DNA of 64,000 nt from contig NZ_CATNVD010000006.1 of NCBI RefSeq assembly GCF_951230155.1, positions 1 to 64,000 on the forward strand. Direction: 5' to 3'. Every line of letters begins with the position of its first letter. Within the stretch, counting starts at the first letter, position 1. Made by a program: the position numbers and the translations under genes. Shown piece after piece: positions 9,256-48,804 of this stretch. Under the pieces are notes generated by a model. The model was not told where the DNA came from and did not search any database. It was given only the letters and a program-made list of their open reading frames with translations. This DNA is from Parablautia sp. Marseille-Q6255. Lineage in GTDB: Bacteria; Bacillota; Clostridia; Lachnospirales; Lachnospiraceae.

Positions 9256-9275
9256 TGGGCAGGTTGTGGTAGAAT
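9246..9275 (+). promoter_or_regulatory. Possible promoter of the ACT-protein/desulfurase/thiI genes
   Basis: TTGGCA (9246-9251) and TAGAAT (9270-9275) are separated by 18 bp and overlap the end of the preceding gene. The match is fair, not perfect; the next genes could also be read from upstream. Confidence 0.4.
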
Positions 9276-9315
9276 TGCCGTGTCACATAGTGAGAAACAA
9301 CATGAGGAGAGACGT

Positions 9316-9738
9316 ATGTTAAGCCAGATTTCAATATATACAGAAAACAAAAAGGGAGCCATGCGCGAGATCACAGAGCTGATGCAGCAGCAGGACATCA
9401 ACATCCTGGGTTCTGTCAATAATGACAGTGCGGAGTACGGGATTGTACGGATGGTAGTGTCGCAGCCGCAAAAGGCGCTGCAGTCACTTTCTGAAAAAGG
9501 ATATATGTGCAAGCTGACAGATGTGCTCGGCATTGAGATCCAGGATCGGGTAGGAGAGTTAAACCGCCTGCTCACAGCGCTTGATGAGAGCAATATCAAC
9601 GTCAACTACATGTATTTATCGTTTAACCGTGAGTCGGGCAGTCCGGTCATGGTGTTCCACACAAACGACATTACAGAGGTAGAGGAATGCCTGACGGCAA
9701 AGGGCTTTTGCGGTCTGGGCTCTCTGCGAGAGGCGTAA
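9316..9738 (+). CDS. Tandem ACT-domain protein
   Basis: The 140-residue protein consists of two ACT folds: LSQISIYTENKKGAMREITELM at the start and a second beginning near VLGIEIQDRVGELNRLLTAL. ACT domains bind amino acids or other small ligands and control enzymes or transcription. No catalytic domain is attached, so it is probably a stand-alone regulatory or ligand-binding protein. The ATG is preceded by GAGGAG at 6 bp; an upstream in-frame GTG lacks a ribosome site. It lies 38 bp before a cysteine desulfurase, but any link between the two is inference. Confidence 0.85.
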   Translation: MLSQISIYTENKKGAMREITELMQQQDINILGSVNNDSAEYGIVRMVVSQPQKALQSLSEKGYMCKLTDVLGIEIQDRVGELNRLLTALDESNINVNYMYLSFNRESGSPVMVFHTNDITEVEECLTAKGFCGLGSLREA

Positions 9739-9776
9739 GGATGACAGGGGCTTATTAAGGCAAGGAGGAGTGACAG

Positions 9777-10970: not shown

Positions 10971-11021
10971 TTCAGGAGGCGCTCCCTGTTTTGATCCATT
11001 TTAGAGAGAAGGAAAAAGAGT

Positions 11022-31537: not shown

Positions 31538-31630
31538 TAAAAATGTGACAAAGTTCAGTGAGATTACAGGTGGATGCATACGTCTGTTTGGTTTTGTCAT
31601 AGCAAAAGAAAATACCGGGAGGACAAACGT

Positions 31631-33226: not shown

Positions 33227-33294
33227 GCATATTGATCACTGGATGTGATCGGACAAAGATACTTTGCAGTATGACTGCATGATGGGAGGAAAAG

Positions 33295-33346
33295 AGAGGC
33301 TGCTGCAGCGTGAGTGCATCGGAAGAAGCATTTTGCAACAGCCTCT
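33295..33346 (+). other. Hairpin between binding protein and permease genes
   Basis: AGAGGCTGCTGCA (33295-33307) pairs with TGCAACAGCCTCT (33334-33346) with one G-U pair, followed by TTAAAA. It lies in the 133-bp gap before the permease gene and may act as a partial terminator or as an mRNA-stabilising end that raises the amount of binding protein over permease, a common arrangement in ABC importer operons. Confidence 0.55.
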
Positions 33347-33359
33347 TTAAAAACGTATT

Positions 33360-34352
33360 TTGAAGCAGTATGGGATATTAATAGGAAAGAACATAATACG
33401 GATGGTGTTTTTGCTGGTGGCAGTCAGCATTGTGTCATTTATACTGATGACCATGTCACCGGTCGATCCACTTCAGGCAAATGTCGGTCAGGCGGCGCTT
33501 GGCTCGATGAGCCAGGAACAGATTGAGAAGCTGGAAGCCTACTGGGGCGTGGACGAGCCTCCGCTTAAGCGGTATCTGGCATGGGCGAAGGATTTTGTCA
33601 GAGGAGACTTTGGAATGTCGCTGCAGTATCGGCAGCCTGTTTCAAAGGTGATCGCAGTCAAGCTTGGCAATTCTCTGTTTTTAATGGTGACAGCATGGAT
33701 CCTTTCCGGCGTCATTGGTTTCATCCTTGGCGTGGCAGCCGGGGTGTTCCGCGGCCGTCTGCCTGACCGGCTGATCAAGGGCTACTGTGTCGTGATCTCC
33801 AGCACACCGGCTTTCTGGCTGGCGCTTCTTTTGCTGATGATTTTTGGCGTGTGGCTCAAAGTGCTCCCCATCGGTCTGAGTGTGCCGATCGGGCTGGAGG
33901 CGTCTGGCGTGACATTTCTGGACCGGCTGCGCCATGCGATCCTTCCGGCACTCACACTCTCGATTACAGGTATTTCTAATATCGCGCTCCATACACGTGA
34001 AAAAATGATCGACGTGATGGAGAGCGATTATGTGCTGTTCGCGCGGGCGCGTGGTGAGAGCACGTGGCAGATCGTAAGAAGGCATGCGCTTAGAAATGTG
34101 CTGCTTCCGGCGATCACGCTGCAGTTTGCATCGATCAGTGAAATATTTGGAGGCTCTGTGCTCGTAGAGCAGGTATTTTCTTATTCTGGTATGGGACAGG
34201 CGGCAGTGACGGCAGGACTTGGAAGCGATATGCCGCTTTTGATGGCGATCACGATCGTGAGCGCTGTGTTTGTGTTTGGCGGCAACCTGATTGCAAATAT
34301 CCTCTACGGAATAGTAGATCCGAGGATCCGAAGAGGAGGTAACAGGAAATGA
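33360..34352 (+). CDS. Nickel/dipeptide-type ABC permease (NikB/DppB-like)
   Basis: The 330-residue membrane protein starts with a first helix (MVFLLVAVSIVSFILMTM), an extracellular loop with MSPVDPLQANVGQAALGSMS, and five more helices. The EAA-like cytoplasmic loop is ARARGESTWQIVRRHALRN. It forms the pore with the next gene. The TTG start is the first possible after an in-frame stop and gives the usual N-terminus, but no ribosome site is visible before it. The end overlaps the next permease by ATGA. Confidence 0.88.
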   Translation: MKQYGILIGKNIIRMVFLLVAVSIVSFILMTMSPVDPLQANVGQAALGSMSQEQIEKLEAYWGVDEPPLKRYLAWAKDFVRGDFGMSLQYRQPVSKVIAVKLGNSLFLMVTAWILSGVIGFILGVAAGVFRGRLPDRLIKGYCVVISSTPAFWLALLLLMIFGVWLKVLPIGLSVPIGLEASGVTFLDRLRHAILPALTLSITGISNIALHTREKMIDVMESDYVLFARARGESTWQIVRRHALRNVLLPAITLQFASISEIFGGSVLVEQVFSYSGMGQAAVTAGLGSDMPLLMAITIVSAVFVFGGNLIANILYGIVDPRIRRGGNRK

Positions 34353-35173
34353 AACAGTGGAACAGAAGAAAGGCAACGGTGCTTATTTTAGTGATTTCGA
34401 TCCTGTTTCTGGTCACTGTTGCCGCAGCAGGCAGTCAGTGCTCGGATGCGGCTCGGGCGACAGATTTCTCACGGAAGAATCTGCTGCCATGTCTGGAATA
34501 TCCGTTTGGCACAGACTGGATGGGGCGCGATATGTTTGCCCGGACATTAAAAGGACTTTCCCTGAGTATCCTGATCGGTGTGCTTGCAGCGGCGATCAGT
34601 GCAGTGATCGCACTGGTGCTGGGCATCTGTGCGGCAACGCTTGGACGGCGGGCGGATGGAGTGATCACCTGGGTCATTGATCTGATCATGGGGATCCCGC
34701 ATATGCTTTTGCTGATCCTGATCTCTGTGGCAGCAGGACGGGGCTTAAAAGGTGTGATCATCGGCGTGGCGTTTACACACTGGACCTCCCTTGCACGGCT
34801 GATCCGGGCAGAGGTAATGCAGTTAAAAGAAAGTCCGTATGTAAAGATTGCCGGAAAGCTGGGCAAGGGAAAGTGGTATGTGGCATACCGTCATATCCTT
34901 CCGCATCTGCTGCCGCAGTTTGCGGTCGGCCTGGTACTGATGTTTCCGCACGCGATCCTTCATGAGGCGAGTATCACATTCCTTGGCTTTGGTCTGACGA
35001 GCGAGCAGCCTGCGATCGGCATTATTCTTTCGGAGAGTATGAAATATCTTGTGCTCGGGAAATGGTGGCTTGCGCTGTTCCCGGGACTGGCACTTGTAGT
35101 AACTGTTATCATGTTTTATCTGCTTGGGGAAAATCTGCGCAGGCTGATTGATCCGAACAGTGCGCATGAATAA
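34349..35173 (+). CDS. Nickel/dipeptide-type ABC permease (NikC/DppC-like)
   Basis: The 274-residue partner permease has the family motif YPFGTDWMGRDMFARTLKG after the first helix, five further helices and the coupling loop KIAGKLGKGKWYVAYRHILPH. FLGFGLTSEQPAIG near the C-terminus is also conserved. It pairs with the preceding permease and is powered by the two ATPases downstream. Confidence 0.92.
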   Translation: MKQWNRRKATVLILVISILFLVTVAAAGSQCSDAARATDFSRKNLLPCLEYPFGTDWMGRDMFARTLKGLSLSILIGVLAAAISAVIALVLGICAATLGRRADGVITWVIDLIMGIPHMLLLILISVAAGRGLKGVIIGVAFTHWTSLARLIRAEVMQLKESPYVKIAGKLGKGKWYVAYRHILPHLLPQFAVGLVLMFPHAILHEASITFLGFGLTSEQPAIGIILSESMKYLVLGKWWLALFPGLALVVTVIMFYLLGENLRRLIDPNSAHE

Positions 35174-35235
35174 GTCACATAGTGCACATGAATGAGGCAC
35201 AACAGCTGCAATGAGACGGTTGTGGATAGGAGCGT

Positions 35236-36183
35236 ATGATTTTGGAAAAAAAGTTGCCCCCGATATTGGAAATAAGGGGATTACAGATATCATTTAAACA
35301 GTATGAAAAGGGATTTTCTCAGACAGAGCTTGAGGTGATCCGGGACCTGGATGTGTGCGTCCCTGCCGGGGAGATCGTGGCAGTGGTCGGTTCAAGCGGA
35401 TCGGGAAAGAGTCTGCTTGCACATGCAGTGCTCGGCATCCTGCCGTACAATGCTTCCGTAAAAGGAGAAATCCTCTATGACGGGGAAGCGCTTACAGAAA
35501 AAAGAGTAAAAAGGCTCCGCGGTGATGAGATCGTCCTTGTACCGCAGAGCACCGCGTATCTGGATCCTTTGATGAAGACAGGAGTCCAGATACGAAAAGG
35601 TAAAAAGGATGCGGCCTCAAAGGAAAGGCTGCATCAGATTTTTCGCGAGTATGAGCTGAAGCAGGAAGTGGAGGAGCAGTATCCCTTTGAGCTGTCCGGA
35701 GGTATGACGCGCCGCATTATGAATGCAACGGCTTTGATGGGGCATCCGCGTCTGGTGATCGCAGACGAGCCGACGCCGGGGCTTCATATTTCTGTTACAC
35801 GGCGGGCAATGGAGCACTTCAGAGAGCTGGCAGATATGGGAGCAGGCGTACTGCTGATCACGCATGACCTGGAGCTGGCAGTCGAGACGGCAGATCGCAT
35901 CGCTGTATTTTATGCAGGCTCTACACTTGAGGAAGTTCCTGCTTTAGCTTTTCAGTCGTGCGATACGCTGCATCATCCGTATTCCAGAGCATTATGGAAT
36001 GCGATGCCAAAGCATGGTTTTCAGCCGATCCCCGGCACACAGCCGTATGCCAGAGAAATGCCTCAGGGATGTCCATTTGGACCGCGCTGTCCAAAGTACA
36101 CACAGGAATGCAGCGAAAAGATTCCCTGGCGTCAGACCGGGGACGGACGGGTACGATGTATCCATGCAGAGGAAGCACAGTAA
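35236..36183 (+). CDS. Nickel/dipeptide-type ABC ATPase (NikD/DppD-like)
   Basis: The 315-residue ATPase has Walker A VGSSGSGKSLLA, signature ELSGGMTRRIMNATAL and Walker B LVIADEPTPGL. The C-terminal extension CPFGPRCPKYTQEC...RVRCIH carries four cysteines, as in oligopeptide ATPases where it holds an Fe-S cluster or zinc. The PQSTAYLDP Q-loop is typical. AGGAGC lies 4 bp before the ATG. It works with the shorter ATPase that follows. Confidence 0.9.
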   Translation: MILEKKLPPILEIRGLQISFKQYEKGFSQTELEVIRDLDVCVPAGEIVAVVGSSGSGKSLLAHAVLGILPYNASVKGEILYDGEALTEKRVKRLRGDEIVLVPQSTAYLDPLMKTGVQIRKGKKDAASKERLHQIFREYELKQEVEEQYPFELSGGMTRRIMNATALMGHPRLVIADEPTPGLHISVTRRAMEHFRELADMGAGVLLITHDLELAVETADRIAVFYAGSTLEEVPALAFQSCDTLHHPYSRALWNAMPKHGFQPIPGTQPYAREMPQGCPFGPRCPKYTQECSEKIPWRQTGDGRVRCIHAEEAQ

Positions 36184-36255
36184 GATACCGTGAACAAAAA
36201 AATCACCGGAAATGGCAGCGAGGATTACAGTTTGCGGGATATGGCAGGAAAGTGA

Positions 36256-36867
36256 GTGACAGACATGATATTACAGGCAAAGAACGTTTCATTTCAATAC
36301 AAAGAGAACGCGCCACTGGTGCTCCAGAACATATCATTTGAAGTAAAAGAAGGGGAGCGTGTCGGACTGCGCGGCAAGAGCGGGATTGGAAAGACAACGC
36401 TCTGCCGGCTTCTGGCAGGATATGAGAAGCCGCACAGCGGCGAAGTCCTTCTGGATGGCAGGCCAGTGACAGAGTATCGCGGCTACTGTCCTGTGCAGAT
36501 GGTCTGGCAGCACCCCGAACAGGCAGTCAATCCGCGCAGGCGGATGTATACGGTACTCGAAGAGGGGGATGGCATCCCCCAGGAGATGACCGCAAAGCTC
36601 GGGATCGAGGAGGCGTGGAAGCAGCGCTTTCCCGCAGAGCTTTCAGGAGGAGAGCTGCAGCGCTTCTGTATTGCGCGTGCGCTGGGAAAAAGAACGAGGA
36701 TCCTTCTGGCAGACGAGATCAGTACCATGCTGGATCTGATCACACAGAGCCAGATCTGGACGTTCCTGCTGGAGGAAGCGAAGCGCAGAAACCTCGGCAT
36801 GGTCGTTGTGAGTCACAGTGATGACCTGCTTGACCGGATATGTACGAGGATTGTGGAGATCGGTTGA
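36256..36867 (+). CDS. Nickel/dipeptide-type ABC ATPase, short form (NikE/DppF-like)
   Basis: The 203-residue protein is a bare ATPase domain with Walker A LRGKSGIGKTTLCRLL, signature ELSGGELQRFCIARAL and Walker B ILLADEISTMLD. It lacks the C-terminal Cys-rich extension of its partner and of usual DppF proteins, which have over 300 residues; here it ends just after the His-switch VVSHSDD. The start may be the GTG given or an ATG 9 bp later. It closes the importer operon. Confidence 0.88.
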   Translation: MTDMILQAKNVSFQYKENAPLVLQNISFEVKEGERVGLRGKSGIGKTTLCRLLAGYEKPHSGEVLLDGRPVTEYRGYCPVQMVWQHPEQAVNPRRRMYTVLEEGDGIPQEMTAKLGIEEAWKQRFPAELSGGELQRFCIARALGKRTRILLADEISTMLDLITQSQIWTFLLEEAKRRNLGMVVVSHSDDLLDRICTRIVEIG

Positions 36868-37166: not shown

Positions 37167-37223
37167 TTGACAGGCAAGCGAAATAGTGATACTCTGTAGT
37201 TAGATTAATTAATAACATCACAG
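37167..37223 (+). promoter_or_regulatory. ROK gene promoter and 18-bp operator motif
   Basis: TTGACA (37167-37172) is followed after 17 bp by TACTCT (37190-37195), a TAnnnT-type -10. Just past the expected start lies TAATTAATAACATCACAG (37206-37223), which occurs again in front of the importer operon. Position at the start site fits a repressor operator, and the ROK protein is the natural candidate. Confidence 0.6.
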
Positions 37224-37231
37224 GAGAAAAG

Positions 37232-38428
37232 ATGTCTTCAATAAGAGTACAGCATCAGGCAGGATTAAAATCAAATAATTGCAGAATCGTTCTTCGCTTG
37301 CTGAGGGACAATCGTCATAAGATGATTTCGCGGGCGGATCTGGCTAAAGAGACAGAAATGAGTCCGACCAGTATCACACGTTTGATCCGACAGCTGCTGG
37401 ATCTGGATCTGGTATGCCAGAATGAAGCTTTTTCAAAAGGAACAGGCGTGGGGCGTAATGGTATTCAGGTCAGCATTAATCCTGACGCATTTTATAGTAT
37501 GGGACTGTCAATCGACAGTGACTATGTAAAAGTGTGTATTATCAATTGCGTAGATGAGGTTTTGGCGGAAACTGAGGAGGCGTTAGAAGAACGCTATTAC
37601 GATCCTGCAGAGTTGCTTAAAAAGGCAAAAGATATGCTGGATCATCTGATTTTGCGCTATCATATCAGGAGAGATAAGGTACAGGCACTTGGCGTAGCAT
37701 GTGTAGGAAATGTTGATCACGTCAGAGGTTACAGCCATTTTGCATCTCAGATGGGATGGCATGATGTGGATCTTGCATTGCTTGTGTATCAGGTTTTTGG
37801 CATGGATGCATGTATTGACAACGATGTGAAGATGGCATTGATCGGTGCAACGTATCAGTTCGCACATATGCGGAATTCAGACAGCGTATATGTATCCATT
37901 GGGGCAGGGGTCGGAGCTTCTATTATGTATGATGGAAAGATGGTACGTGGACGAAACAACGCTGTTGGGGAAGTAGGACATACTCATTTTGCAGATGAAG
38001 GCCGTCAGTGTGTCTGTGGTAGAAAGGATTGTGCTTATACTTATATCTCAACCCCGGCGTTATTGGAAATGTGCAAAAAGTGTGGGCACCCGATGGACAA
38101 CTTGGAAGCCCTGGCAAAAGCGATTGATGCAGGAGAAGGATGGACAAGACCAATTATAGATCAGTATACAAAATATCTTTCTATATTTATTGCCGACATG
38201 GTTTATATTTATAATCCAGAGTACTTGCTGGTAGGAGGGGAACTGATCACATCACATCCAGTGTTTTTTGAGCAGATGCAGAGTAAAGTACAGGAAAGCA
38301 TCATACATGATAATCTGGCGTCAAAAGTTGTAATAAAGAAAAGAGAGCTGAAGAACAATGCTGCACTCGGGGCAGCGTGCGCCGCAAATGAGCAGCATGT
38401 GCTTCAGATTATCGAATCATATGAATAA
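37232..38428 (+). CDS. ROK family transcriptional regulator
   Basis: The 398-residue protein has an N-terminal winged helix (ISRADLAKETEMSPTSITRLIRQLLDLDLV) and a ROK sugar-kinase-like domain with SIGAGVGASIMYDGKMVRGRNN and the zinc site GHTHFADEGRQCVCGRKDC. Such XylR/NagC-like proteins repress sugar genes and let go on binding a sugar or sugar phosphate. It is followed by its own terminator and then by the ABC importer operon that shares its 18-bp motif. The codon use is AT-richer than in the preceding genes. Confidence 0.93.
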   Translation: MSSIRVQHQAGLKSNNCRIVLRLLRDNRHKMISRADLAKETEMSPTSITRLIRQLLDLDLVCQNEAFSKGTGVGRNGIQVSINPDAFYSMGLSIDSDYVKVCIINCVDEVLAETEEALEERYYDPAELLKKAKDMLDHLILRYHIRRDKVQALGVACVGNVDHVRGYSHFASQMGWHDVDLALLVYQVFGMDACIDNDVKMALIGATYQFAHMRNSDSVYVSIGAGVGASIMYDGKMVRGRNNAVGEVGHTHFADEGRQCVCGRKDCAYTYISTPALLEMCKKCGHPMDNLEALAKAIDAGEGWTRPIIDQYTKYLSIFIADMVYIYNPEYLLVGGELITSHPVFFEQMQSKVQESIIHDNLASKVVIKKRELKNNAALGAACAANEQHVLQIIESYE

Positions 38429-38434
38429 TTATAG

Positions 38435-38509
38435 AGTTTAATGAATTTGTGTGTGGCATCTTCATTAGCTTGAGGCTGAGCTACATATCAGATTCATTAA
38501 ACTTTTTTT
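38435..38509 (+). terminator. Terminator of the ROK regulator gene
   Basis: AGTTTAATGAAT (38435-38446) pairs perfectly with ATTCATTAAACT (38492-38503), followed by seven T. An inner stem TAGCT/AGCTA lies in the long loop. It separates regulator transcription from the downstream operon. Confidence 0.85.
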
Positions 38510-38514
38510 CATAG

Positions 38515-38532
38515 TAATTAATAACATCACAG
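38515..38532 (+). promoter_or_regulatory. Second copy of the 18-bp operator motif
   Basis: TAATTAATAACATCACAG is identical over 18 bp to the motif at 37206-37223 and stands 74 bp before the binding-protein gene, directly after the ROK terminator. A good -35/-10 pair is not visible here, so the promoter of the operon is uncertain. The duplicated site strongly suggests shared control of regulator and operon. Confidence 0.7.
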
Positions 38533-38606
38533 AAGAAATAAATGGAAAAATGTGGAAATTAAAGGAGAAGATTCCTTTAATAATAAAAAGAAGAGAGGTA
38601 GAAGGT

Positions 38607-39629
38607 ATGAGTAAAAGAAGGTTAGCAACAGTATTGGCGGCGGCAACAGTGATTACTTCTGTTATGGCTCCGGTTGGTGTATCGGCTGACGAACCAGAGT
38701 TCAAGATTGGTATCGCTTTTGCAAATGAAAATGCACAAAGATGGCATTACGATGAGAAGTTCATGGTAGAGACCATTGAAGCGGCCGGCGGGGAGGCGCT
38801 TGTTCAGTGGGCAAACTATGATCAGACAAAACAGGAAAATCAGATTGATAATCTACTGACACAGGGAATAGACGCATTGATTTTTATTGCAGTCAGCTCC
38901 AATATGTCATCGACAGTCGAGAAGGTAAAAGCAGAAGGAATTCCAGTTGTATGTTACGACAATTTTGTGCAGGACGCACCACTTGATGTTTATCTGGACC
39001 GTGATAATAAAGAAGCAGGTAAGCTTCAGATGCAGTCTGCAATGGATGCGATTGGCGGAAAAGGAAAAATTGCCATTATCCATGGGGAGCCGACCTCCAG
39101 TGTGGTTCTTGGAATGAAGGAAGGCTATGATGAAGTGTTGAAAGAATATCCAGATGTGGAGGTTGTGCTGGAGCAGTACTGCGAAGCATACAGTGCGGAA
39201 AAAGCATTAAAATATGCAGAAAACGCACTTTCAGCAAATAATGATGATATTGATGCAATCGTATGTACGGCAGATGTACTCACGCTTGGTATTCTTCCCG
39301 CACTTGAATCAGCGGGCATTGCAGGCGATGTTTACCTGACAGGAATGGACTGTGAAGTAGCTGCAATGCAGGCAGTTAATCAGGGAAAGATCGGTATTGA
39401 TATCTGGACTAAGATAGATGAGTGCGCAACGAGGGCTGCAGAGTGTGCAATCTCACTTGTAAAGGGGGAAGAGATTGAAGCAGACGAGATGGTAAAAAAT
39501 GGAGAGTATGAGGTGCCAAAGATTTTTGTACCGATTGTAGGAGTCACAAAAGATAATCTGGAAGAATGGGCAACAGAAATTGCTCCTGAGGGCTGGATTA
39601 CGATGGATCAGATTACGGCAGAGGAGTAA
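38607..39629 (+). CDS. Sugar-type ABC substrate-binding protein (XylF-like)
   Basis: The 340-residue periplasmic-binding protein has a signal peptide (LATVLAAATVITSVMAPVGVSA) and the type I fold with FKIGIAFANENAQRWHYDEKFM, ALIFIAVSSNMSSTVEKVKAEGIPVVCYDN and YLTGMDCEVAAMQAV, most like XylF. No lipobox cysteine is present. The ligand is probably a sugar or sugar derivative, but the partner genes suggest a compound with peptide-like bonds. The ATG follows GAGAGGTAGAAGG; an upstream frame extension is not supported. Confidence 0.9.
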   Translation: MSKRRLATVLAAATVITSVMAPVGVSADEPEFKIGIAFANENAQRWHYDEKFMVETIEAAGGEALVQWANYDQTKQENQIDNLLTQGIDALIFIAVSSNMSSTVEKVKAEGIPVVCYDNFVQDAPLDVYLDRDNKEAGKLQMQSAMDAIGGKGKIAIIHGEPTSSVVLGMKEGYDEVLKEYPDVEVVLEQYCEAYSAEKALKYAENALSANNDDIDAIVCTADVLTLGILPALESAGIAGDVYLTGMDCEVAAMQAVNQGKIGIDIWTKIDECATRAAECAISLVKGEEIEADEMVKNGEYEVPKIFVPIVGVTKDNLEEWATEIAPEGWITMDQITAEE

Positions 39630-39710
39630 TGAAAATCAGCCAGAGAAGGTAGAGGATATGTGGCGGGCTGTATATATGCGGCCCGTCATGAGAAAAGAGA
39701 GGTGGACAAG

Positions 39711-41243
39711 TTGGAAAAAAATAAAACAATTCTCGTCCTGAAAAATTTAACAAAAGAATTTCCAGGGGTTCGTGCTGTTTCAGACGCTTCTCTGGAAATA
39801 AAAACGGGGGAAGTACATTCTATCGTAGGTGGTAATGGGGCAGGAAAGTCGACACTAATGAAAATGCTGGCAGGAGTTTATGCGTATGATACTTTTGCGG
39901 GGACGATAGAATTAAATGGAGAGAAGTGTGAATTTAAAAATATTTTGGAAGCTCAGAAAAAAGGAATTGCTATGATTCCACAGGATCTGAATATGATGGA
40001 AGAGCTGTCTGTTGCAGAAAATCTGTTCCTTGATAAATATCCAGTCAAGCATGGTATGGTGGATTATCGTACAATGTACAGTGAAACGCAGAGGATTATT
40101 GATGAGTTCGGGCTGCATGTCAGCCCGCAGACAAAAGTAAAGGAAATAGGAATTGCACAAAAGCAGCTGATTGTTATCGCGAGAGCCATGTATAACGATG
40201 TTAAAGTATTGCTGCTAGATGAGCCGACTGCGACACTTTCTGACAAAGAATGTAAGATTTTGTTTCAGAAGGTAGATGAGATGAAGAAGAAAAATATCGC
40301 ATGTATCTATATTTCACATCGACTGGAAGAGGTGAAAGAAATTTCAGATGTTATCACTGTTATGCGAGATGGAGAAATTGTAGGTACAGCACCGAATGTA
40401 GATATGGACGAAAAACGTATTGTTTCTCTAATGGTGGGGCGAGATGTGGATGAAGTATATCCCGAGCATGATCGTACACCCGAGGAAGTGATTCTTTCTA
40501 TAAAAAATGTCACGATCAAAGATCCACGGACAGAAAATAAGCTAGTGGTTGATCATGTGTCCTTTGATGTCAGGAAGGGTGAAATCCTTTCACTTTACGG
40601 GCTTGTAGGAGCTGGACGCAGTGAGACAGCTCTTGCAATGCTCGGAGCATACAACGGAGCAGTGACATGTGAAATGGAATTGAAGGGAAAGCCGATACGG
40701 ATATTGTCTCCCAGTGATGCTGTAAAATATAAGATTGGTTATCTTCCTGAGGATAGAAAGCGGCAGGGAGTTGTAGATATTGCAAGTGTAGGTCACAACA
40801 TTACAATGTCAAGTTTGTCGGAACTTTCCAGATATTCGGTTTTGAACCATGAGAAAGAAAGAGAGATGATCCAGGATGTGATACAGCGCCTTGCGATTAA
40901 AACACCTACCCCGGAAACATTGGTACGTAATATGAGTGGTGGAAATGCCCAGAAATGTGTGCTCGGTCGGTGGATAGCAGCCAATTCAGAGATTTTGATT
41001 TTGGATGAAGCGACTCAGGGGATAGATGTGGAAGCAAAAACACAGATTTACCATATTATGGATGAGTTAGCTAAAAGTGGAAAAGCAATTATTTTTATAT
41101 CCTCTGATCTATCAGAGGTAATGGGAATTTCAGATCGGATTCTGACTATGCGACATGGAAAAGTTGTAAATATAACAGATGGAAAGAGAGCCCAGAGAAA
41201 TAAGATTTTATGGGAAGCTACTGTGGGAAATAAGGAGGAATAG
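39711..41243 (+). CDS. Sugar-type ABC ATPase with two nucleotide domains (XylG-like)
   Basis: The 510-residue protein has two fused ATPase domains. Domain 1 has Walker A VGGNGAGKSTLM and Walker B VLLLDEPTATLS; domain 2 has the altered Walker A GLVGAGRSETA, signature MSGGNAQKCVLGRWI and Walker B ILILDEATQGID, the usual pattern of the RbsA/XylG/MglA group. The TTG start is chosen because AGGTGG lies 5 bp upstream and the frame before it is unlike the family. It is 2 bp from the permease gene. Confidence 0.92.
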   Translation: MEKNKTILVLKNLTKEFPGVRAVSDASLEIKTGEVHSIVGGNGAGKSTLMKMLAGVYAYDTFAGTIELNGEKCEFKNILEAQKKGIAMIPQDLNMMEELSVAENLFLDKYPVKHGMVDYRTMYSETQRIIDEFGLHVSPQTKVKEIGIAQKQLIVIARAMYNDVKVLLLDEPTATLSDKECKILFQKVDEMKKKNIACIYISHRLEEVKEISDVITVMRDGEIVGTAPNVDMDEKRIVSLMVGRDVDEVYPEHDRTPEEVILSIKNVTIKDPRTENKLVVDHVSFDVRKGEILSLYGLVGAGRSETALAMLGAYNGAVTCEMELKGKPIRILSPSDAVKYKIGYLPEDRKRQGVVDIASVGHNITMSSLSELSRYSVLNHEKEREMIQDVIQRLAIKTPTPETLVRNMSGGNAQKCVLGRWIAANSEILILDEATQGIDVEAKTQIYHIMDELAKSGKAIIFISSDLSEVMGISDRILTMRHGKVVNITDGKRAQRNKILWEATVGNKEE

Positions 41244-41245
41244 GG

Positions 41246-42394
41246 ATGGAAGCAAAAAATAAAGCGATTTTAAAAAAAGTGGGAATTATTGCCGCTTTGG
41301 GAATACTTGTGATTATTTTTAATCAGCTTACAGATAACGCTTTTGGTTCACAGAGAAACCTGATCATGCTGTTAAAGCAGGCTTCTGTTTTAATGATCCT
41401 CACTTCCAGCCTTATGATGCTGCTGATTGAGAAAAACTTTGATTTAAGCGGTGGTTCCGGTGTATATCTGGCAGGGACAATCTGTGCTTTGATGATTGTA
41501 AAAAGTGGGATCAGTATGTACATAGCCATTCCAGTTACGTTGGTGCTCGGTGTATTTATGGGAAGCATCAATGGATTTTTCATTGGTTATCTCGGCCTTC
41601 CGGCATTTATTGTTACGCTGGCAGCACAGCAGATTTTCCGGGGCATCGGTTATACGCTAACAGATTGTGCAACAGTAGGTCCTATGCCTTCGGAGTTTAC
41701 AGCGATTTCTGAAACATTTATTTCCTCGTATGTATCAGTGGCAATTATACTTGTGATTCTAGCTGCTTTTATTGTGAGTCATCTGAAAAAGTATCGGGCA
41801 ATGGGGGCATGGTATGGAGGAAGAACAAAACTGATTGAAAATATTGCTTTGGCATCAGCAGTAGCGGCAGTACTTAGCTGGATGTTTATGGGATACCGTG
41901 GCTGCCCGATGGCTGTTGTGATCGCAACAGTTGTAGCATTTGCGGCGCACTTAATCACAACGAAAACTGTATACGGTCGACATGTATATTTAATTGGTGG
42001 AAATGTTGAAGCAGCAAGACTAGCAGGGATTAATACATCAAAAAGAATTTTTCAGTCATACCTGTTTGAAGGGCTGATGTACGGTATTGGCGGTATCGTT
42101 CTGACGGCGCGCCTGGGAGGTGCAGCTTCTACTGGTGGTAATCTTCTGGAGCTAGATGCAGTGGCGGCAGCATGTATTGGTGGTGTCAGCATGAACGGAG
42201 GCGTAGGAACCGTTCTTGGTGCAGCTTGCGGTGTCATCATTCTGACAGCGATTGATAATGTAATGAGCCTGATGAATATATCTTCTTATTTACAGATGGT
42301 AATTAAAGGAATTATTTTACTGTTGGCAATCTGCATTGACCTGTATACAAATAAAGCAAAGTTTAGATTTAAATTAAATAAAAAAGAAAAATAA
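41246..42394 (+). CDS. Sugar-type ABC permease (XylH-like)
   Basis: The 382-residue protein has about ten membrane helices, a conserved NFDLSGGSGVYLAGT-like segment (KNFDLSGGSGVYLAG), the GLPAFIVTLAAQQIFRGIGYTLT helix and LDAVAAACIGGVSMNGGVGTVLGA, all typical of the XylH/RbsC family. It forms a transporter with the flanking ATPase and binding protein. The size is that of XylH rather than RbsC. Confidence 0.93.
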   Translation: MEAKNKAILKKVGIIAALGILVIIFNQLTDNAFGSQRNLIMLLKQASVLMILTSSLMMLLIEKNFDLSGGSGVYLAGTICALMIVKSGISMYIAIPVTLVLGVFMGSINGFFIGYLGLPAFIVTLAAQQIFRGIGYTLTDCATVGPMPSEFTAISETFISSYVSVAIILVILAAFIVSHLKKYRAMGAWYGGRTKLIENIALASAVAAVLSWMFMGYRGCPMAVVIATVVAFAAHLITTKTVYGRHVYLIGGNVEAARLAGINTSKRIFQSYLFEGLMYGIGGIVLTARLGGAASTGGNLLELDAVAAACIGGVSMNGGVGTVLGAACGVIILTAIDNVMSLMNISSYLQMVIKGIILLLAICIDLYTNKAKFRFKLNKKEK

Positions 42395-42420
42395 AAATTA
42401 AGAATATGAGGTGAAAAAGT

Positions 42421-43863
42421 ATGAAAGTTGCATTAGGAATGTTTTATCATGAGGCAAATTCTTTCAATCCCAAGATGGTGGAAAAGGATGATTTTGTGTA
42501 TGTGGAAGGGCAAGAGGTTATTGACCGTATGTTTGCAAGTGAGGTATTTCAGGACGCTAACGCAGAGCTTGTGCCGTTGATTTACTGTAATACACTTCCA
42601 AACGGTATTGTCAGACGGGAAGCGTATGATTTTTATTCCAACCGGATTTTGGAGATTCTGTCTGAGAATAAGGATGTGGATGGCGTGATGCTGCATTTGC
42701 ATGGCAGCATGGAAGTCGAAGGTTTGGGTTCTGGTGAATATGATCTTCTGAAAAAAATCCGTCAGCTGTTAGGTCCTGACGTAATCATTGGGATCGCACT
42801 TGACGCACATGCGAATACTCATCCGGAATTCTGCAAACTGGTCAACGCAGTGAGAAATTACAGAACGATTCCCCATACCGATCAGAATGTGACAGAACAG
42901 ACCGTAGCAAGGCATATGGTAAAATGTATACAGGAGGGAAGAAAGACCGTCCCTCAATTTGTCAGACTGCCTTATGCAATCCATGCGGAGAAAGCGACTA
43001 TGGCAACCTGGCCGTTGAGTGAAATCTATGAAAAATTATGGAAACTGGAAGAAAGACAAGAGGTAGCAATCGCGACACTTGGGATCGGTATGATGTGGTG
43101 TGATTGTGAGACACTTGCAACGAATGTGGCAGTGACACCATCAAAAGAAGAATATACAGATTATTGTAAAGCTCTGGCAAAGGAACTGGCAGATTATGTG
43201 TATGGCTTACGGGACAGTTTTGATTTTGAACAGCTTCCGCTTTCGCCGCATGAAGCAGCCAGATATTCTGTTCGATTTGAAGGGACGCCAGTATATGTAT
43301 CTGATTCTGGAGATAACACGACTGGAGGGGCAGTGGGAGACCATACAATCATGCTGCGTGAGTACTTAAATCTCAGAGAATACTACGGTAAAAAAATTTT
43401 GGTGACAACGATATGGGATGAAAATGCGCTGGCAGTTTGTATGGAGCATAAAGAAGGAGATGAGATAGAGATTTCAATTGGCCATGATTATGATGAAAAC
43501 ACAAAGGCTGTTCTTGTAAAAGGAAAGATTAAGAAAAAAGGAAAGCTGCGTGGTTATATGGGATGCGAAGATGATGAAGTAGGAGACGTGGTTACAATTG
43601 AGACAGAGCATGTAGATATTGTACTTTGCGGTCATGCGGGTTCATTTATTTCAGTAAGACATTTTACAGATGGTGCAGGATTGAATATGGATGACTATCA
43701 GGTAATAGTGGTAAAGCAGGGATATTTATTCGCTGAGTTGCGTAAACTTGCAAAACTTGCGATTCTGGCATTGACACCGGGAGGGACACATCAGTTAGTG
43801 GAAAACCTGGAATATCATAATATAAAGCCTCCTGTATATCCACTGCAGTATGTTCCAAAATAA
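42421..43863 (+). CDS. M81 family metallopeptidase (MlrC-like)
   Basis: The 480-residue protein carries the M81 pattern: GMFYHEANSF (H10, E11), LHLHGSM (91-97), LDAHANT (127-133), RTIPHTD (148-154) and DSGDNTTGGAVGDHT (295-309). The Asp/His residues are those expected to bind zinc. MlrC itself opens linearised microcystin in Sphingomonas, and many homologues have unknown substrates. It follows the sugar permease by 26 bp and precedes two M24-like genes in the same operon. The role is probably hydrolysis of an amide bond in the imported compound. Confidence 0.9.
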   Translation: MKVALGMFYHEANSFNPKMVEKDDFVYVEGQEVIDRMFASEVFQDANAELVPLIYCNTLPNGIVRREAYDFYSNRILEILSENKDVDGVMLHLHGSMEVEGLGSGEYDLLKKIRQLLGPDVIIGIALDAHANTHPEFCKLVNAVRNYRTIPHTDQNVTEQTVARHMVKCIQEGRKTVPQFVRLPYAIHAEKATMATWPLSEIYEKLWKLEERQEVAIATLGIGMMWCDCETLATNVAVTPSKEEYTDYCKALAKELADYVYGLRDSFDFEQLPLSPHEAARYSVRFEGTPVYVSDSGDNTTGGAVGDHTIMLREYLNLREYYGKKILVTTIWDENALAVCMEHKEGDEIEISIGHDYDENTKAVLVKGKIKKKGKLRGYMGCEDDEVGDVVTIETEHVDIVLCGHAGSFISVRHFTDGAGLNMDDYQVIVVKQGYLFAELRKLAKLAILALTPGGTHQLVENLEYHNIKPPVYPLQYVPK

Positions 43864-43889
43864 CTGAGCTCTGAAAGGTTATATACTTT

Positions 43890-45326
43890 ATGCAAATAGC
43901 AGAATATGTGAAAAGAATTAAAAAATATACCAGAGAACAGGTAGCATACATGCTAGTCAGACCGCCACAGTATGCGGATATAAAACTTCCAGTTCCTATT
44001 ACTGCAAAGACAGTGAAGGAGCGCAGGAAGAATGTCCTTGCCAGGATGCAAAAGTTTCATGTGGATGTATTGTTTATCTATGCGGATCGGGAGCATGGAG
44101 CAAATTTTTCATACCTCACTGGTTTTGAGCCGCGATTTGAAGAAGCTGTGCTTGTACTTCACATAGATGGAACAGCGTATCTGATGCTTGGAAATGAAAT
44201 GCTTTCCATGGAACAATTTTGCAGGATTCCGGCAAGAGCAATTCATGTACCACATTTTTCACTTCCGAATCAGCCAATGCTACAGGAAAAGAAAATGGAG
44301 GAATATCTGGAGAAGGCAGGAATTAAAAAAGGTATGCAAGTAGGCGTTGTAGGTTGGAAATTGTTTACGTGTATATTTACAGAAAATGAGCAGATATATG
44401 ATGTGCCTCATTTTTTAATCGATGCCTTAGAACGAAAGGTAACTTCACAGGGAAGCCTGAGGAACCTCACCAAGCTGTTTATTGATCCATGCAATGGAGT
44501 GCGTGTGACGGTAAATGCGAATGAACTGGCTTATTATGAATTTGGAGCAGCAGTAGCATCAGACTGTGTTATGACCTGTCTGGAGCAAATAGAAGTGGGA
44601 AAGACAGAACTTACACTGGCAGAACCGCTTGCAGCGTATGGGCAGCCAGTCAACGTGCAGACAATCTGTGCGACCGGAGAGCGTTTTACCGATGGAGTGA
44701 TTGCGCCGAGAAATAAACCGACAGTAAGGGGAGACAGGTTTTCGGTTACCATGGGATTAAGAGGAGGTCTGACATCACGAGCCGCTTATGTGGCAAATGG
44801 TACGGATGACCTGCCAGTATCAGAACGTGGATATTTCGAGTATGGTGCTAAACCATACTTTGCAGCTCTTGCAACATGGTACGCAACAATCGGCTTAGAT
44901 ATTACTGCAGGAGAGTTGTATGATGCAATTGAATCAGTTTTGCCCAAAGAGCAGTATGGCTGGATGTTGAACCCTGGACATTTAACATCCAGCGAGGAAT
45001 GGCTCTCCTCTCCGTTTTTCGCTGGTTCAGATATCAGATTAACAAGCGGCATGATGCTTCAGGCAGACATTATCCCACGAGCATCAGCATTTGGAAGGGC
45101 AGGTGCGGAGGATGGTATCGCATTGGCAGATAAAGAACTTAGAGATCAGCTGAAAGAGCAGTATCCGCAGGTATGGGATCGTATTTGCAGACGGAGGACC
45201 TATATGCAGGAGGTGCTTGGTATTTCTCTGAAGGAGGAAGTACTTCCGCTGTCTGATCTTGCAGGTTATTATCGTCCGTTTCTTTTGAATAAACAATTTG
45301 CTTTCAAAATGGAGGAAAAGGTATGA
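43890..45326 (+). CDS. M24-like 'pita-bread' protein with lost metal site, copy A
   Basis: The 478-residue protein has an aminopeptidase P/creatinase-type N domain (YADREHGANFSYLTGFEPR) and a pita-bread C domain. The two metal Asp of M24 enzymes should sit in a GDxVxxDxG...SDxTR stretch; here it reads GDRFSVTMGLRGGLTSR (281-297) with neither. His364 (NPGHLTSSEEW) and Glu408 (AEDGIALADK) remain, and the fourth ligand is Asp393. It may therefore act without two metals, as creatinase does, or not be an enzyme. It overlaps copy B by ATGA. Confidence 0.82.
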   Translation: MQIAEYVKRIKKYTREQVAYMLVRPPQYADIKLPVPITAKTVKERRKNVLARMQKFHVDVLFIYADREHGANFSYLTGFEPRFEEAVLVLHIDGTAYLMLGNEMLSMEQFCRIPARAIHVPHFSLPNQPMLQEKKMEEYLEKAGIKKGMQVGVVGWKLFTCIFTENEQIYDVPHFLIDALERKVTSQGSLRNLTKLFIDPCNGVRVTVNANELAYYEFGAAVASDCVMTCLEQIEVGKTELTLAEPLAAYGQPVNVQTICATGERFTDGVIAPRNKPTVRGDRFSVTMGLRGGLTSRAAYVANGTDDLPVSERGYFEYGAKPYFAALATWYATIGLDITAGELYDAIESVLPKEQYGWMLNPGHLTSSEEWLSSPFFAGSDIRLTSGMMLQADIIPRASAFGRAGAEDGIALADKELRDQLKEQYPQVWDRICRRRTYMQEVLGISLKEEVLPLSDLAGYYRPFLLNKQFAFKMEEKV

Positions 45327-46732
45327 ATATTATCGAGAAAAAAACAGAGCTGACACTTTGTGAGCAGCCAATCGGGTATGCCTATGAGGAAGTACCTGAA
45401 CTTACAGCTTGGGATTATAGGCAACGAATACAAAAACTTTGGAATATGGAACAGACAAAGGCATATGATTTTATTATTATTTATGGAGACAGAGAGCATT
45501 TTTCCAATATTTATTATTTCACAGGTTATGATCCGCGGTGGGAAGAATCCCTGCTTATTCTGAAAAGAGGAGCGAGACCAATACTTTTGGTAGGAAATGA
45601 AGGCATGGGATATGTCAGTCAGCTTCAGGCAGATGTAACAGTAACTATGTATCAGACACTGAGTCTGATGGGACAGCCGAATGATGCGCGGAGTAAGAAG
45701 TTGACTGATATTTTCTGTGAGGCGGGAGTTGATGTGAAATCTCACATTGGTCTGATCGGATGGAAAACGTACCAGAAAGAGTTGTTCGATCTGCCAGAAC
45801 TGGTTACGGATGTACCATATTATATAGTAGAAACTCTTGCAAAGATTGTTGGGCTTGAAAAGATTGAAAATGCAACAGATGTACTGACTGATTGTGAGTA
45901 TGGATTGAAACATCAGGTAAGTGCGAAGGAAATTGTCCAGTTTGATGTAATTGGGACAAAAGTTTCAAGAGGGATTTATGATTGTGTGAAAAATCTCAGA
46001 CCGGGCATGAGGGAAATAGAAGCTGCGGAAAAAATCAGATTTAATGGAGAACCGCTGAATATGCATCCAAATATTAATTTTGGAAAGAACCATGTGGCGG
46101 CGGGGCTTAATAGTCCAAAGTATGATGTAAAGCTGCAGTATGGTATGCCAATGGGAGCAGGGTATGGAATGAGAGGGAGTCTTGTTCATAAATGTGGTAT
46201 GTACATAAGAGATGAGTCAGATCTTCCTGAAGAGCAAAAGGATTATGTTAAGAATTTTTTGAAACCGTATTTTGCATGTGTGATCAAATGGTATGAAATG
46301 ATGAAAATAGGAACATCCTGCGGTGATATCTATCAGATGGTAGAAGACATGTTAGGATTTGAGAAATTTGGAATAGGACTGAATCCGGGGCATTTGACGC
46401 ATACAGATGAGTGGACCAATTCGCCGTTCCAGAAAAACAGTAAAGTAAAAATTCAATCAGGTATGGCATTTCAGTGTGATTTTACGGTTACATCACAGAA
46501 ACCATTTATGAGTGCTCATGTAGAAGATGGTCTGGTAATTGCGGATAAAGCGCTCAGAGAGGAAGTAAAACGAATTGCTCCAACATGCTATCAGCGTATT
46601 GAAGCAAGAAAGCAGTTTATTTGTGATGTCCTTAACATTAATTTGCCAGAAGAAGTGTTGCCGCTTTCTGACCTGAGTTGTGTATGCTTCCCCTATATGG
46701 CGGATATTTCTGTGGTATTGGCGAAAGAGTGA
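45323..46732 (+). CDS. M24-like 'pita-bread' protein with lost metal site, copy B
   Basis: A 469-residue relative of copy A. Shared features are YGDREHFSNIYYFTGYDPRWEE, NPGHLTHTDEW (His357), Asp386 and VEDGLVIADKALR (Glu401). The metal Asp pair is again missing (GMPMGAGYGMRGSLVHK, residues 274-290). The similar loss in both copies, with a shared NPGHLT-EW-SPF signature, suggests a distinct subfamily acting as a heterodimer. It is the last gene of the operon. No terminator with a good T run is visible after it. Confidence 0.82.
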   Translation: MNIIEKKTELTLCEQPIGYAYEEVPELTAWDYRQRIQKLWNMEQTKAYDFIIIYGDREHFSNIYYFTGYDPRWEESLLILKRGARPILLVGNEGMGYVSQLQADVTVTMYQTLSLMGQPNDARSKKLTDIFCEAGVDVKSHIGLIGWKTYQKELFDLPELVTDVPYYIVETLAKIVGLEKIENATDVLTDCEYGLKHQVSAKEIVQFDVIGTKVSRGIYDCVKNLRPGMREIEAAEKIRFNGEPLNMHPNINFGKNHVAAGLNSPKYDVKLQYGMPMGAGYGMRGSLVHKCGMYIRDESDLPEEQKDYVKNFLKPYFACVIKWYEMMKIGTSCGDIYQMVEDMLGFEKFGIGLNPGHLTHTDEWTNSPFQKNSKVKIQSGMAFQCDFTVTSQKPFMSAHVEDGLVIADKALREEVKRIAPTCYQRIEARKQFICDVLNINLPEEVLPLSDLSCVCFPYMADISVVLAKE

Positions 46733-46813: not shown

Positions 46814-46902
46814 AGTCCTACTGTTTATATTTACAATATAAACAAAATTTGCAAAGAGTCAGAAAATTATAGCAGGCGATGGCTCTGCAGAAGGAGGACG
46901 AT

Positions 46903-47919
46903 TTGGAGAAAAAGTTTGACAAAGGAAAAGCGCTGGCCCGGGCGAAATATGTGGCAATCGGTATCGGGATACTGATCGTGATAGCGATCCTGGGGACAGG
47001 TATGTGGTATCAGATCGAAGAGCAGGAAGAGGCTGTGGTTGTGACTCTGGGAGAGGCGAAAGCCGTTTCTGAGAAGGGACTGCATTTTAAGCTGCCTCTG
47101 ATCCAGCAGGTACATAAGGTAAATACCACGATCCAGGGCTTCCCGATCGGCTATGATACGGCGACCAATGAGACAGTGGATGATGAGGCAGTCATGATCA
47201 CCTCGGATTACAACTTTATCAATGCTGACTTTTTCGTAGAGTATCGCATTTCAGATCCGGTGAAGTATCTGTATGCGTCAGATTCACCGGAGGATATCCT
47301 GAAAAATATCGCGCAGAGCTGCATCCGTACGGTGATCGCAAGCTATGATGTGGACAGCGTACTGACAACAGGAAAGTCAGAGATCCAGGCAGCGATCAAG
47401 GAGATGATCCTCGACAAGCTGGAGACACAGGATATTGGTCTGGATCTGGTAAATATCACGATCCAGGATTCTGAGCCGCCGACACAGGAGATCATGCAGG
47501 CGTTTAAGGCGGTAGAGACAGCAAAGCAGGGCAAGGATACGGCACTGAATAATGCGAACAAATACCGCAATGAGAAGCTTCCGGCTGCAAAGGCACAGGC
47601 GGACGAGATCGTGCAGGATGCAGAGGCGAAGAAGCAGACGCGTATCAATGAAGCAGAAGCTCAGGTGGCTCGTTTTAATGCCATGTATGAGGAATATGAG
47701 AAGAACCCGACTGTCACAAAGCAGCGTATGTTCTTTGAAGCAATGGAAGATGTACTTCCGGATCTGAAAGTGATCATAGATGAGGGGAATGGCGTGCAGA
47801 AGGTACTTCCACTGGAGCCATTTGCCGAGATGACACAGCCGCAGCAGGATGAGGCTGCCGGTGAGACACAGCAGACCGGTGATACCGCGGCACAGACCGG
47901 AAGCGGTACACAAAGATAA
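46903..47919 (+). CDS. hflK: SPFH membrane protein HflK
   Basis: HflK and HflC form a cage around the FtsH protease in bacterial membranes. The 338-residue protein has one N-terminal helix (about residues 15-35, KYVAIGIGILIVIAILGTGM), then an SPFH/PHB domain (EEAVVVTLGEAKAVSEKGLHFKLP) and a long coiled coil. The TTG start has AAGGAGG 5 bp upstream; an in-frame ATG 24 bp earlier has no comparable site. hflC follows after 12 bp. Confidence 0.88.
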   Translation: MEKKFDKGKALARAKYVAIGIGILIVIAILGTGMWYQIEEQEEAVVVTLGEAKAVSEKGLHFKLPLIQQVHKVNTTIQGFPIGYDTATNETVDDEAVMITSDYNFINADFFVEYRISDPVKYLYASDSPEDILKNIAQSCIRTVIASYDVDSVLTTGKSEIQAAIKEMILDKLETQDIGLDLVNITIQDSEPPTQEIMQAFKAVETAKQGKDTALNNANKYRNEKLPAAKAQADEIVQDAEAKKQTRINEAEAQVARFNAMYEEYEKNPTVTKQRMFFEAMEDVLPDLKVIIDEGNGVQKVLPLEPFAEMTQPQQDEAAGETQQTGDTAAQTGSGTQR

Positions 47920-47931
47920 GGAGGAGTACAG

Positions 47932-48804
47932 ATGAAAAAGAAAATAATCGCGGCAGTTGGCGGAGTTCTTCTTCTCATTCTTCTTGCATCTTCCGTTGTG
48001 GTGACGGCGGAGAATGAGTACAGTATCGTGCGGCAGTTTGGACGGATCAGCCGTGTTATTGAAAAGCCGGGTCTGTCCATGAAGGTTCCGTTTATCCAGA
48101 CAGCAGACAGTTTCCCGAAGCAGACGCTTCTTTATGATCTGGTTCCGTCAGAGGTCATTACGCGTGACAAAAAGACCATGATCACAGACAGCTATGTACT
48201 GTGGCGGATTTCAGATCCGACGAAGTTTGCACAGACGCTCAACGGTTCACTGATGAATGCGGAGAGCCGTATCAATACCGCTGTGTATAATGCGCTGAAA
48301 AATGCGATCAGCAGCATGACACAGGATGAGGTCATCACGAGCCGTGACGGTGAGCTTTCTGCACTTGTGATGGACAGGATCGACGAGGGTATGGATCAGT
48401 ACGGGATTGAGCTTATGATGTTTGAGACAAAGCAGCTCGATCTGCCGGAGGACAATAAGGCAGCTGTTTATGAGCGTATGATCTCCGAGCGCGATAATAT
48501 TGCCGCAACGTATACGGCGGAGGGTGACTCTGAGGCACAGGTGATCCGCAATACGACGGATAAAGAGGTAGCGATCAGCATTTCGGAAGCGAAGAAGCAG
48601 GCAGAGATCCTCGAGGCAGAAGGAGAGGCAGAGTATATGCGCATCCTTTCAGAGGCTTATAATACAGAAGAAAAGACAGAGTTTTACTCTTTTGTAAGAA
48701 GCCTTGACGCACTGAAAACCTCTATGACAGGAGAGGACAAGACGGTAGTCCTGTCAGCGGATTCTCCGATCGCACAGATTTTTAACGGCTATGCGCTTGA
48801 GTAA
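47932..48804 (+). CDS. hflC: SPFH membrane protein HflC
   Basis: The 290-residue partner of HflK has an N-terminal membrane helix (IIAAVGGVLLLILLASSVVVT) and SPFH domain (ENEYSIVRQFGRISRVIEKPGLSMKVPF), with helical RDNIAATYTAEGDSEAQ and DKEVAISISEAKKQAEIL as in other HflC. It lies 12 bp after hflK with a strong AAGGAGGAG site, and a terminator ends the pair. Confidence 0.92.
   Translation: MKKKIIAAVGGVLLLILLASSVVVTAENEYSIVRQFGRISRVIEKPGLSMKVPFIQTADSFPKQTLLYDLVPSEVITRDKKTMITDSYVLWRISDPTKFAQTLNGSLMNAESRINTAVYNALKNAISSMTQDEVITSRDGELSALVMDRIDEGMDQYGIELMMFETKQLDLPEDNKAAVYERMISERDNIAATYTAEGDSEAQVIRNTTDKEVAISISEAKKQAEILEAEGEAEYMRILSEAYNTEEKTEFYSFVRSLDALKTSMTGEDKTVVLSADSPIAQIFNGYALE

Follow-up and report, generated by a model that had tools for sequence, protein, structure and literature searches.

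A candidate operon of Parablautia sp. Marseille-Q6255 that joins a ROK regulator and a sugar-type importer to M81 and apparently metal-free M24-like hydrolases

Among proteins of the pita-bread fold, creatinase (creatine amidinohydrolase) and the ectoine hydrolase EutD act without the dinuclear metal pair, and the biochemistry of the M81 family is known mainly from the breakdown of microcystin. EutE, the partner of EutD in ectoine catabolism, is not an M81 protein. In that pathway EutD opens the ring and EutE takes off the acetyl group, the importer being a TRAP transporter and the regulator a MocR protein, as excerpted text of PMC8739950 describes it. The EutD/EutE pair (DoeA/DoeB) is the closest known arrangement to the two-hydrolase set of a locus that we describe here from Parablautia sp. 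Marseille-Q6255, located on contig C6 (NZ_CATNVD010000006.1) of a 3.79-Mb genome, in a window that is the whole 64,000-nucleotide stretch of DNA analyzed. The locus consists of a gene for a ROK regulator and a six-gene run of importer and hydrolase genes, in the order ROK, XylF-like, XylG, XylH, M81, M24a, and M24b on the plus strand; whereas ectoine catabolism has TRAP and MocR, this locus has a CUT2-type importer and ROK. A first-pass annotation had proposed seven such genes in a row, and all seven open reading frames (ORFs) are open and intact; the families that it assigned are borne out by profile matches, those of M24a and M24b only remotely, and the union of a sugar-type regulator and importer with amide-type hydrolases recurs in other genomes.

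We favor, at a little short of an even chance, the reading that this is a substrate-inducible catabolic operon through which a sugar-like carbon-nitrogen (C-N) conjugate is imported and cut by metal-free M24-like hydrolases and an M81 zinc amide hydrolase. The ROK protein would repress its own gene and the importer operon through a repeated 24-bp site, and the XylF-type transporter would import a small sugar-like compound bearing a C-N group, be it an amide, ureide, amidine, or guanidine. Once in the cytosol, the compound would meet the M24-like proteins, pita-bread hydrolases that would work without metal as creatinase and EutD do, and M81, which would use zinc to hydrolyze an amide in either this compound or its product; between them, the enzymes would separate the sugar or polyol moiety from the nitrogen moiety. 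M24b might be a diverged second hydrolase, either joined with M24a in a mixed complex or taking a related intermediate. Of the substrates suggested in the first-pass annotation, a glycoconjugated amino acid or a guanidino-like molecule would fit the partner genes.

The M24-like proteins carry much of this argument. M24a (43890..45326, plus strand) is predicted to have the pita-bread fold of an M24 metallopeptidase, and the fold of M24b (45323..46732, plus strand), a second M24-like protein in a separate clade on a long branch, is presumed from homology to M24a. M24b lies just over the Pfam M24 cut-off (25.4 versus 23 bits); for M24a, a search at E values up to 0.1 yields no Peptidase_M24 match, only a Creatinase_N match of 20.8 bits that falls under the cut-off of 22. 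No Asp occurs at M24a columns 287 to 301 in 69 of 69 and 22 of 22 aligned sequences, so that the M24 metallopeptidase set of five metal ligands (D, D, H, E, E) is incomplete, two of them being absent; of the remainder, the His is kept, the third-ligand Glu aligns with Asp393, and the last Glu is kept. Eleven residues spread over both domains (Y64, D66, E68, H69, N72, E84, E85, H364, E370, D393, and E407) are invariant in all 69 sequences. When the first-pass annotation called the two proteins pseudo-peptidases, it was right to the extent that two of the five metal ligands are missing, but the invariant His, Asp, and Glu argue against a dead enzyme. M24a shares with creatinase and EutD the fold and the want of a dinuclear metal site, at an identity of 12 to 15% (structural identity to EutD is only 14 to 15%), and this likeness together with the invariant set suggests that the M24-like proteins are working metal-free hydrolases rather than dead ones. 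Such an identity is too low for catalytic residues to be mapped onto creatinase or EutD by sequence, and no creatine pathway came to light, none having been sought. That they are instead catalytically dead sensors or scaffolds, with M81 as the sole enzyme, we consider very unlikely, given the density of invariant polar residues in both domains and the ability of creatinase and EutD to function without the metal pair.

An alignment-based scan of species genomes found at least 543 stretches encoding M24-like proteins; a genome scan with the single M24b protein had found no relatives. Those members whose annotation was seen are named M24 metallopeptidase, aminopeptidase P, or Xaa-Pro aminopeptidase, and in one record hypothetical. 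These family names, and the fact that the best fold and sequence matches of M24a are prolidases, favor an alternative that we think unlikely, namely, the scavenging of glycopeptides or modified peptides, in which M24a, M24b, and M81 would be true, perhaps atypical, peptidases trimming imported glycosylated amino acids or muropeptide-like compounds. MlrC of the M81 family cuts a peptide bond (PMC9982164, in excerpt), M81 genes elsewhere adjoin oligopeptide-type ATP-binding cassette (ABC) transporters (names assigned partly by eye), and a NikA/Opp-like importer stands just upstream of this locus; however, the two metal ligands are missing throughout both alignments, the importer of the operon is of the sugar type and not Opp, and deaminase- and carbamoylase-like enzymes are the partners in some other clusters. 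A distinct M24 subfamily of 390 amino acids adjoins M81 in three loci, L182 (12094-13269), L183 (6470-7642), and L184 (9204-10391) (L and G numbers are our labels for loci and genomes); it scores over the Pfam M24 cut-off, yet by eye the two metal Asp are absent. At one chromosomal site in six enterobacterial loci (L101, L106, L109, L113, L114, and L120, the record of L114 being titled Chryseobacterium), a lone M24-like gene lies downstream of secD/secF-like genes, with no labeled importer or M81, the gene names being given by eye.

The M81 protein (42421..43863, plus strand) matches PF07364 (5.2e-66) and MlrC_C (1.4e-34) and so has the DUF1485 and MlrC_C domains of its family. The zinc ligands of MlrC are E39, D167, H169, and a His numbered both 191 and 196 in the excerpted text of PMC9982164. 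The corresponding E11, D128, H130, and H152 are kept here and do not vary in any of the 22 M81 proteins of the same cluster that come from loci with M24; in the alignment, the Asp and the two His match the MlrC ligands and the Glu matches 3iuu. The two Pfam domains and the zinc-ligand positions are thus common to this protein and the MlrC microcystinase, but it scores 75.5 against a cut-off of 999 bits in the microcystinase equivalog and has a sugar importer for a neighbor. Microcystin catabolism was discarded because the equivalog score is far too low. M81 genes also recur beside CutC-family genes, a second and unexplained association, in L187 (assigned by Pfam), L143 (by record annotation), and L188, L191, and L199 (by eye); these loci carry CUT1 or oligopeptide-type importers, and L199 and L143 carry ROK too. 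M81 paralogues may also stand close to one M24-like gene, four of them in L031 (G065) and five in L117 (Holdemania massiliensis).

With the XylFGH and Ggu importers of the CUT2 type, the importer of this locus shares its family and the gene order of binding protein, double ATPase, and permease, and it differs from them in sub-cut-off equivalog scores and changed pocket positions. The XylF-like binding protein (38607..39629) matches Peripla_BP_4 (8.9e-53), the XylG/GguA-like double ATPase (39711..41243) shows two ABC_tran stretches, and the XylH/GguB-like permease (41246..42394), like the others on the plus strand, matches BPD_transp_2. The closest solved structure to the binding protein is XylF (E. 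coli 3m9w), and the NCBIfam equivalog cut-offs are not reached for XylF (206 versus 389.55 bits), XylG (507.9 versus 723.65), or GguB (272.8 versus 450). Of the positions that we take to contact xylose in XylF (R16, W17, R91, D135, N137, W169, N196, D222, and K242), the protein keeps R16, W17, and D222, and R91, D135, N137, W169, N196, and K242 are replaced by N, S, V, Y, A, and T, respectively. Six changes among nine presumed contacts suggest a remodeled pocket and an importer that is probably not of the plain xylose type; the XylF relationship proposed in the first-pass annotation therefore holds, but import of plain xylose is disfavored, and a plain xylose operon was dropped as a reading on the pocket positions and equivalog scores. 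The XylF-like proteins of L041, L043, and L087 retain eight of the nine presumed contacts, L041 and L043 also carry a xylose-isomerase-like TIM barrel (by Pfam in L041 and by similarity in L043), and L043 has an FGGY-kinase-like gene (by similarity), which makes pentose-type substrates plausible for these three clusters. In the binding proteins at 38607-38700 and at 49239, the signal peptides are by eye plain ones that lack a lipobox Cys, which is unusual for a Gram-positive-type cell.

The regulator is likewise of a sugar type. The ROK protein (37232..38428, plus strand) matches PF00480 (6.6e-44, over the cut-off) and carries a winged-helix-turn-helix (HTH)-like part N-terminal to the ROK domain, the architecture of a ROK regulator; its best HTH model is MarR_2, below the cut-off (22.3 versus 27 bits), and the NagC and Mlc models match it near full length, below their cut-offs. 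A repeat search found two copies of a 24-bp element on the plus strand, 96% identical, directly 5' of ROK (37206..37229) and 5' of the binding-protein gene (38515..38538), and a weaker copy (71%) at 37044; by eye, the first copy overlaps the ROK ribosome-binding site. Since the same element precedes both ROK and the binding-protein gene, we read the two copies as candidate ROK operators through which the protein probably autoregulates and also controls the importer operon. A wider ROK regulon was sought through the 20-bp core of the repeat and rejected: with up to two mismatches, the whole genome holds the two local copies and one other site (one mismatch), which sits within an ORF resembling glycerol dehydrogenase (by eye) and is probably a chance match, and the control with the reversed pattern gave 0 sites. 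Between ROK and the importer operon lies a hairpin followed by a T run (38433..38505, plus strand), terminator-like in form, with a folding energy of -33.2 kcal/mol, where shuffled sequences average -15.1 (z -6.0). A simple consensus scan of the region did not list this hairpin, nor did it show a clear excess of promoters (34 versus 27.0, standard deviation [SD] 5.5) or terminators (4 versus 5.5, SD 2.5).

Downstream of ROK, the genes form a tightly spaced run that resembles one operon, in keeping with the earlier proposal: the gaps are 2 bp between XylG and XylH, 26 bp between XylH and M81, and 26 bp between M81 and M24a, and M24a and M24b overlap in an ATGA. The starts of two genes were revised, that of the binding protein to a probable ATG at 38607 (the ORF opens at 38550) and that of XylG to a probable TTG at 39711 (the ORF opens at 39660), each behind a good Shine-Dalgarno sequence by eye; the gap between them is 81 bp with the TTG and 30 bp with the GTG at 39660.

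ROK-family proteins, sugar importers of the CUT2 or CUT1 type, M81, and M24-like proteins occur together in other Lachnospiraceae, in Paenibacillus, and on a Pantoea plasmid. Within the genus, G152 has the order ROK, M81, RbsA, RbsC, ADH, Gfo/Idh, binding protein, and M24 (ADH and Gfo/Idh by eye), and G719 has a ROK protein without HTH, M24, binding protein, RbsA, RbsC, RbsC, M81, and a ROK regulator; L053 and L057 follow the order of G719, and Diplocloster modestus has a similar order with one RbsC fewer and an M20 protein in the M81 position. Paenibacillus sanguinis combines CUT1, M81, a ROK-family protein (kinase-like by eye), and M24; the Pantoea vagans plasmid combines CUT1, ROK, M81, M24, and UgpC; and plasmids of Agrobacterium and Rhizobium carry CUT1, ROK, and M24, with M20 added in Agrobacterium. 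In a Bacillus sp., Holdemania filiformis, and Enterococcus pallens, a phosphotransferase system (PTS) accompanies M81 and M24 with no ROK but with regulators of other kinds, and the latter two also have a GH1-like gene (by eye). An N-acetylmuramic acid (MurNAc) or muropeptide substrate for the PTS clusters was considered and dropped, the suspected etherase genes between M81 and M24 (L046 and L060) resembling LysR regulators by eye. Among the papers listed by searches of one open-access library, no title or abstract start described an M81/M24-like association with a sugar operon.

The regulator appears to travel with the hydrolases. The ROK protein shares 39.2, 38.6, 39.2, and 35.9% identity with the regulators of L062, L181/L058, L029/L053, and L057, four clusters of the M24/M81 type (one with an M20 deacylase replacing M81), against 29.6% with that of G152 and 21 to 31% with seven ROK matches elsewhere in the genome (26 and 23% for the longest two), which suggests that regulator and hydrolases stay together while importer and gene order change. 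A second cluster in the same genome, L025 (G000:C7:87500-107400), holds two further M24-like genes (8276-11083) among ROK-like, Amidohydro_2, two XylF-like binding-protein, and XylH- and XylG-like genes and a divergent regulator that by eye is of the LacI type. Paired M24-like genes, put forward earlier as a feature of the system, did not prove general: among 20 loci read, adjacent pairs occur only in this genome, here and on contig C7.

Where M81 is missing from a cluster, M24-like genes adjoin further hydrolases whose annotation implies the cleavage of C-N bonds: M20 enzymes of the ArgE/DapE type in L028 (whose genome holds M81 in a neighboring cluster) and L037, a hydantoinase/carbamoylase type in L115 and, by similarity, in L123, a TRZ/ATZ-type amidohydrolase in L069, an adenine-deaminase type in L072, and an ADI/DDAH type in Shinella (L145). 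Such partners, together with the two-step arrangement of ectoine catabolism, favor a route in which two hydrolases process a sugar-like C-N conjugate. The chemistry of the Amidohydro_2 partner in L025, L026, and L033 is less clear; that family includes sugar lactonases, and the M24-like and M81 proteins might correspondingly be esterases or lactonases for acylated sugars or aldonolactones, the amide link being an artefact of naming. Many clusters provide a sugar context for such a role (ROK, FGGY, xylose-isomerase-like TIM barrels, a rhaM mutarotase, and GH1, the last by eye except where annotated), but several partners are annotated as acting on C-N bonds and no esterase family recurs among the loci read, and we judge sugar-ester or lactone catabolism to be less probable even than peptide scavenging. 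A broader form of the C-N conjugate reading, which we hold more tentatively than the reading for this locus, is that the M24-like family comprises widespread, undescribed metal-free pita-bread hydrolases that form, with M81 or with M20, carbamoylase-, or deaminase-type partners, a general two-step module for freeing sugars from nitrogen-bearing conjugates, joined to varied sugar importers.

The strength of the association was gauged in the best 80 of the at least 543 M24-like loci, with neighbors within eight ORFs labeled from sequence clusters, a procedure that misses divergent genes. M81 was present in 11, ROK in 14, and a labeled sugar importer in 21 of the 80; in the 20 loci L025 to L044, which include this one, the counts were 4, 8, and 13. 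Only 14 of 299 genomes of the host phylum contain M81, so that its presence within some 20 kb at 11 of 80 loci greatly exceeds what chance would give, with the reservation that the best 80 loci do not all come from that phylum. The family sample has M24-like genes in 8 of its 299 genomes, and a larger one has M81 in 22 of 397; among G000 to G298, 17 genomes have M81 and 5 have both (hypergeometric P of 1.6e-5, or 1.8e-4 excluding the genome studied, assuming that all 299 genomes fall within the larger sample), and in 5 of those 5 the two lie in the same region.

A number of observations weigh against our reading, the main weakness being that most of the M24-like family members examined lack such neighbors. 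There is no labeled sugar importer near 59 of the 80 loci and no M81 near 69, from which it follows that the family also functions in their absence. Nine plasmid regions from different hosts, each with an M24-like gene (two being near-identical Agrobacterium clusters), have M81 in one, ROK in four, and a labeled sugar importer in five, and three have none of these. An M24 gene lies near M81 in only 6 of 20 M81 loci, three being of the M24-like family and three (L182 to L184) of the 390-amino-acid subfamily; this set does not contain four loci already known to have M24-like neighbors (this locus, G065, G214, and G250), and some contigs are short. On the M24 tree, the M81 label requires 13 changes, at least 9 of them forced by well-supported branches, whereas shuffled labels average 15.0 and 33 of 500 shuffles needed no more than the observed number, so that the association appears weakly clustered and repeatedly gained or lost. 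Prolidases are level with creatinase in the fold comparison of M24a, in which differences below 1 Z are ties, and the operon itself contains no sugar kinase or isomerase. Conserved co-occurrence, the check that the first-pass annotation had set itself, succeeds in part of the M24-like family. The weak clustering, the variation of importer type between clusters, and the many M24-like and M81 genes that lie apart from each other and without a recognized importer would suit an ordinary sugar operon that hydrolase genes of unrelated function happen to accompany; this seems improbable, about as much so as dead M24-like proteins, in view of the tight spacing, the repeated association, and the closely related regulator in clusters having different importers.

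The stretch immediately upstream of the locus (31574-36867, same strand) encodes the NikA/Opp-like importer (binding protein, two permeases, and two ATPases), which might be related, as M81 genes elsewhere sometimes adjoin that importer type. Behind the operon, hflK- and hflC-like genes (hflC by eye; 46879-48804) are probably unrelated; hflK follows M24b after a 146-bp gap, in which folding revealed no significant terminator structure 3' of M24b (z 0.35). No known RNA element scored above its gathering threshold at the locus, with one weak match (E 0.37).

In summary, this locus and the recurring mixtures of genes related to it point to an undescribed route for the use of nitrogen-bearing sugar-like compounds, the strongest new points being that a large and apparently misnamed family seems to do without metal and that it is found time and again with M81 and sugar uptake. 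If this is true, a family of hundreds of genes, its annotated members filed as M24 metallopeptidases or aminopeptidases, would be neither metal dependent nor peptidases, and M81 would gain a role in the catabolism of sugar conjugates by gut, plant-associated, and soil bacteria.

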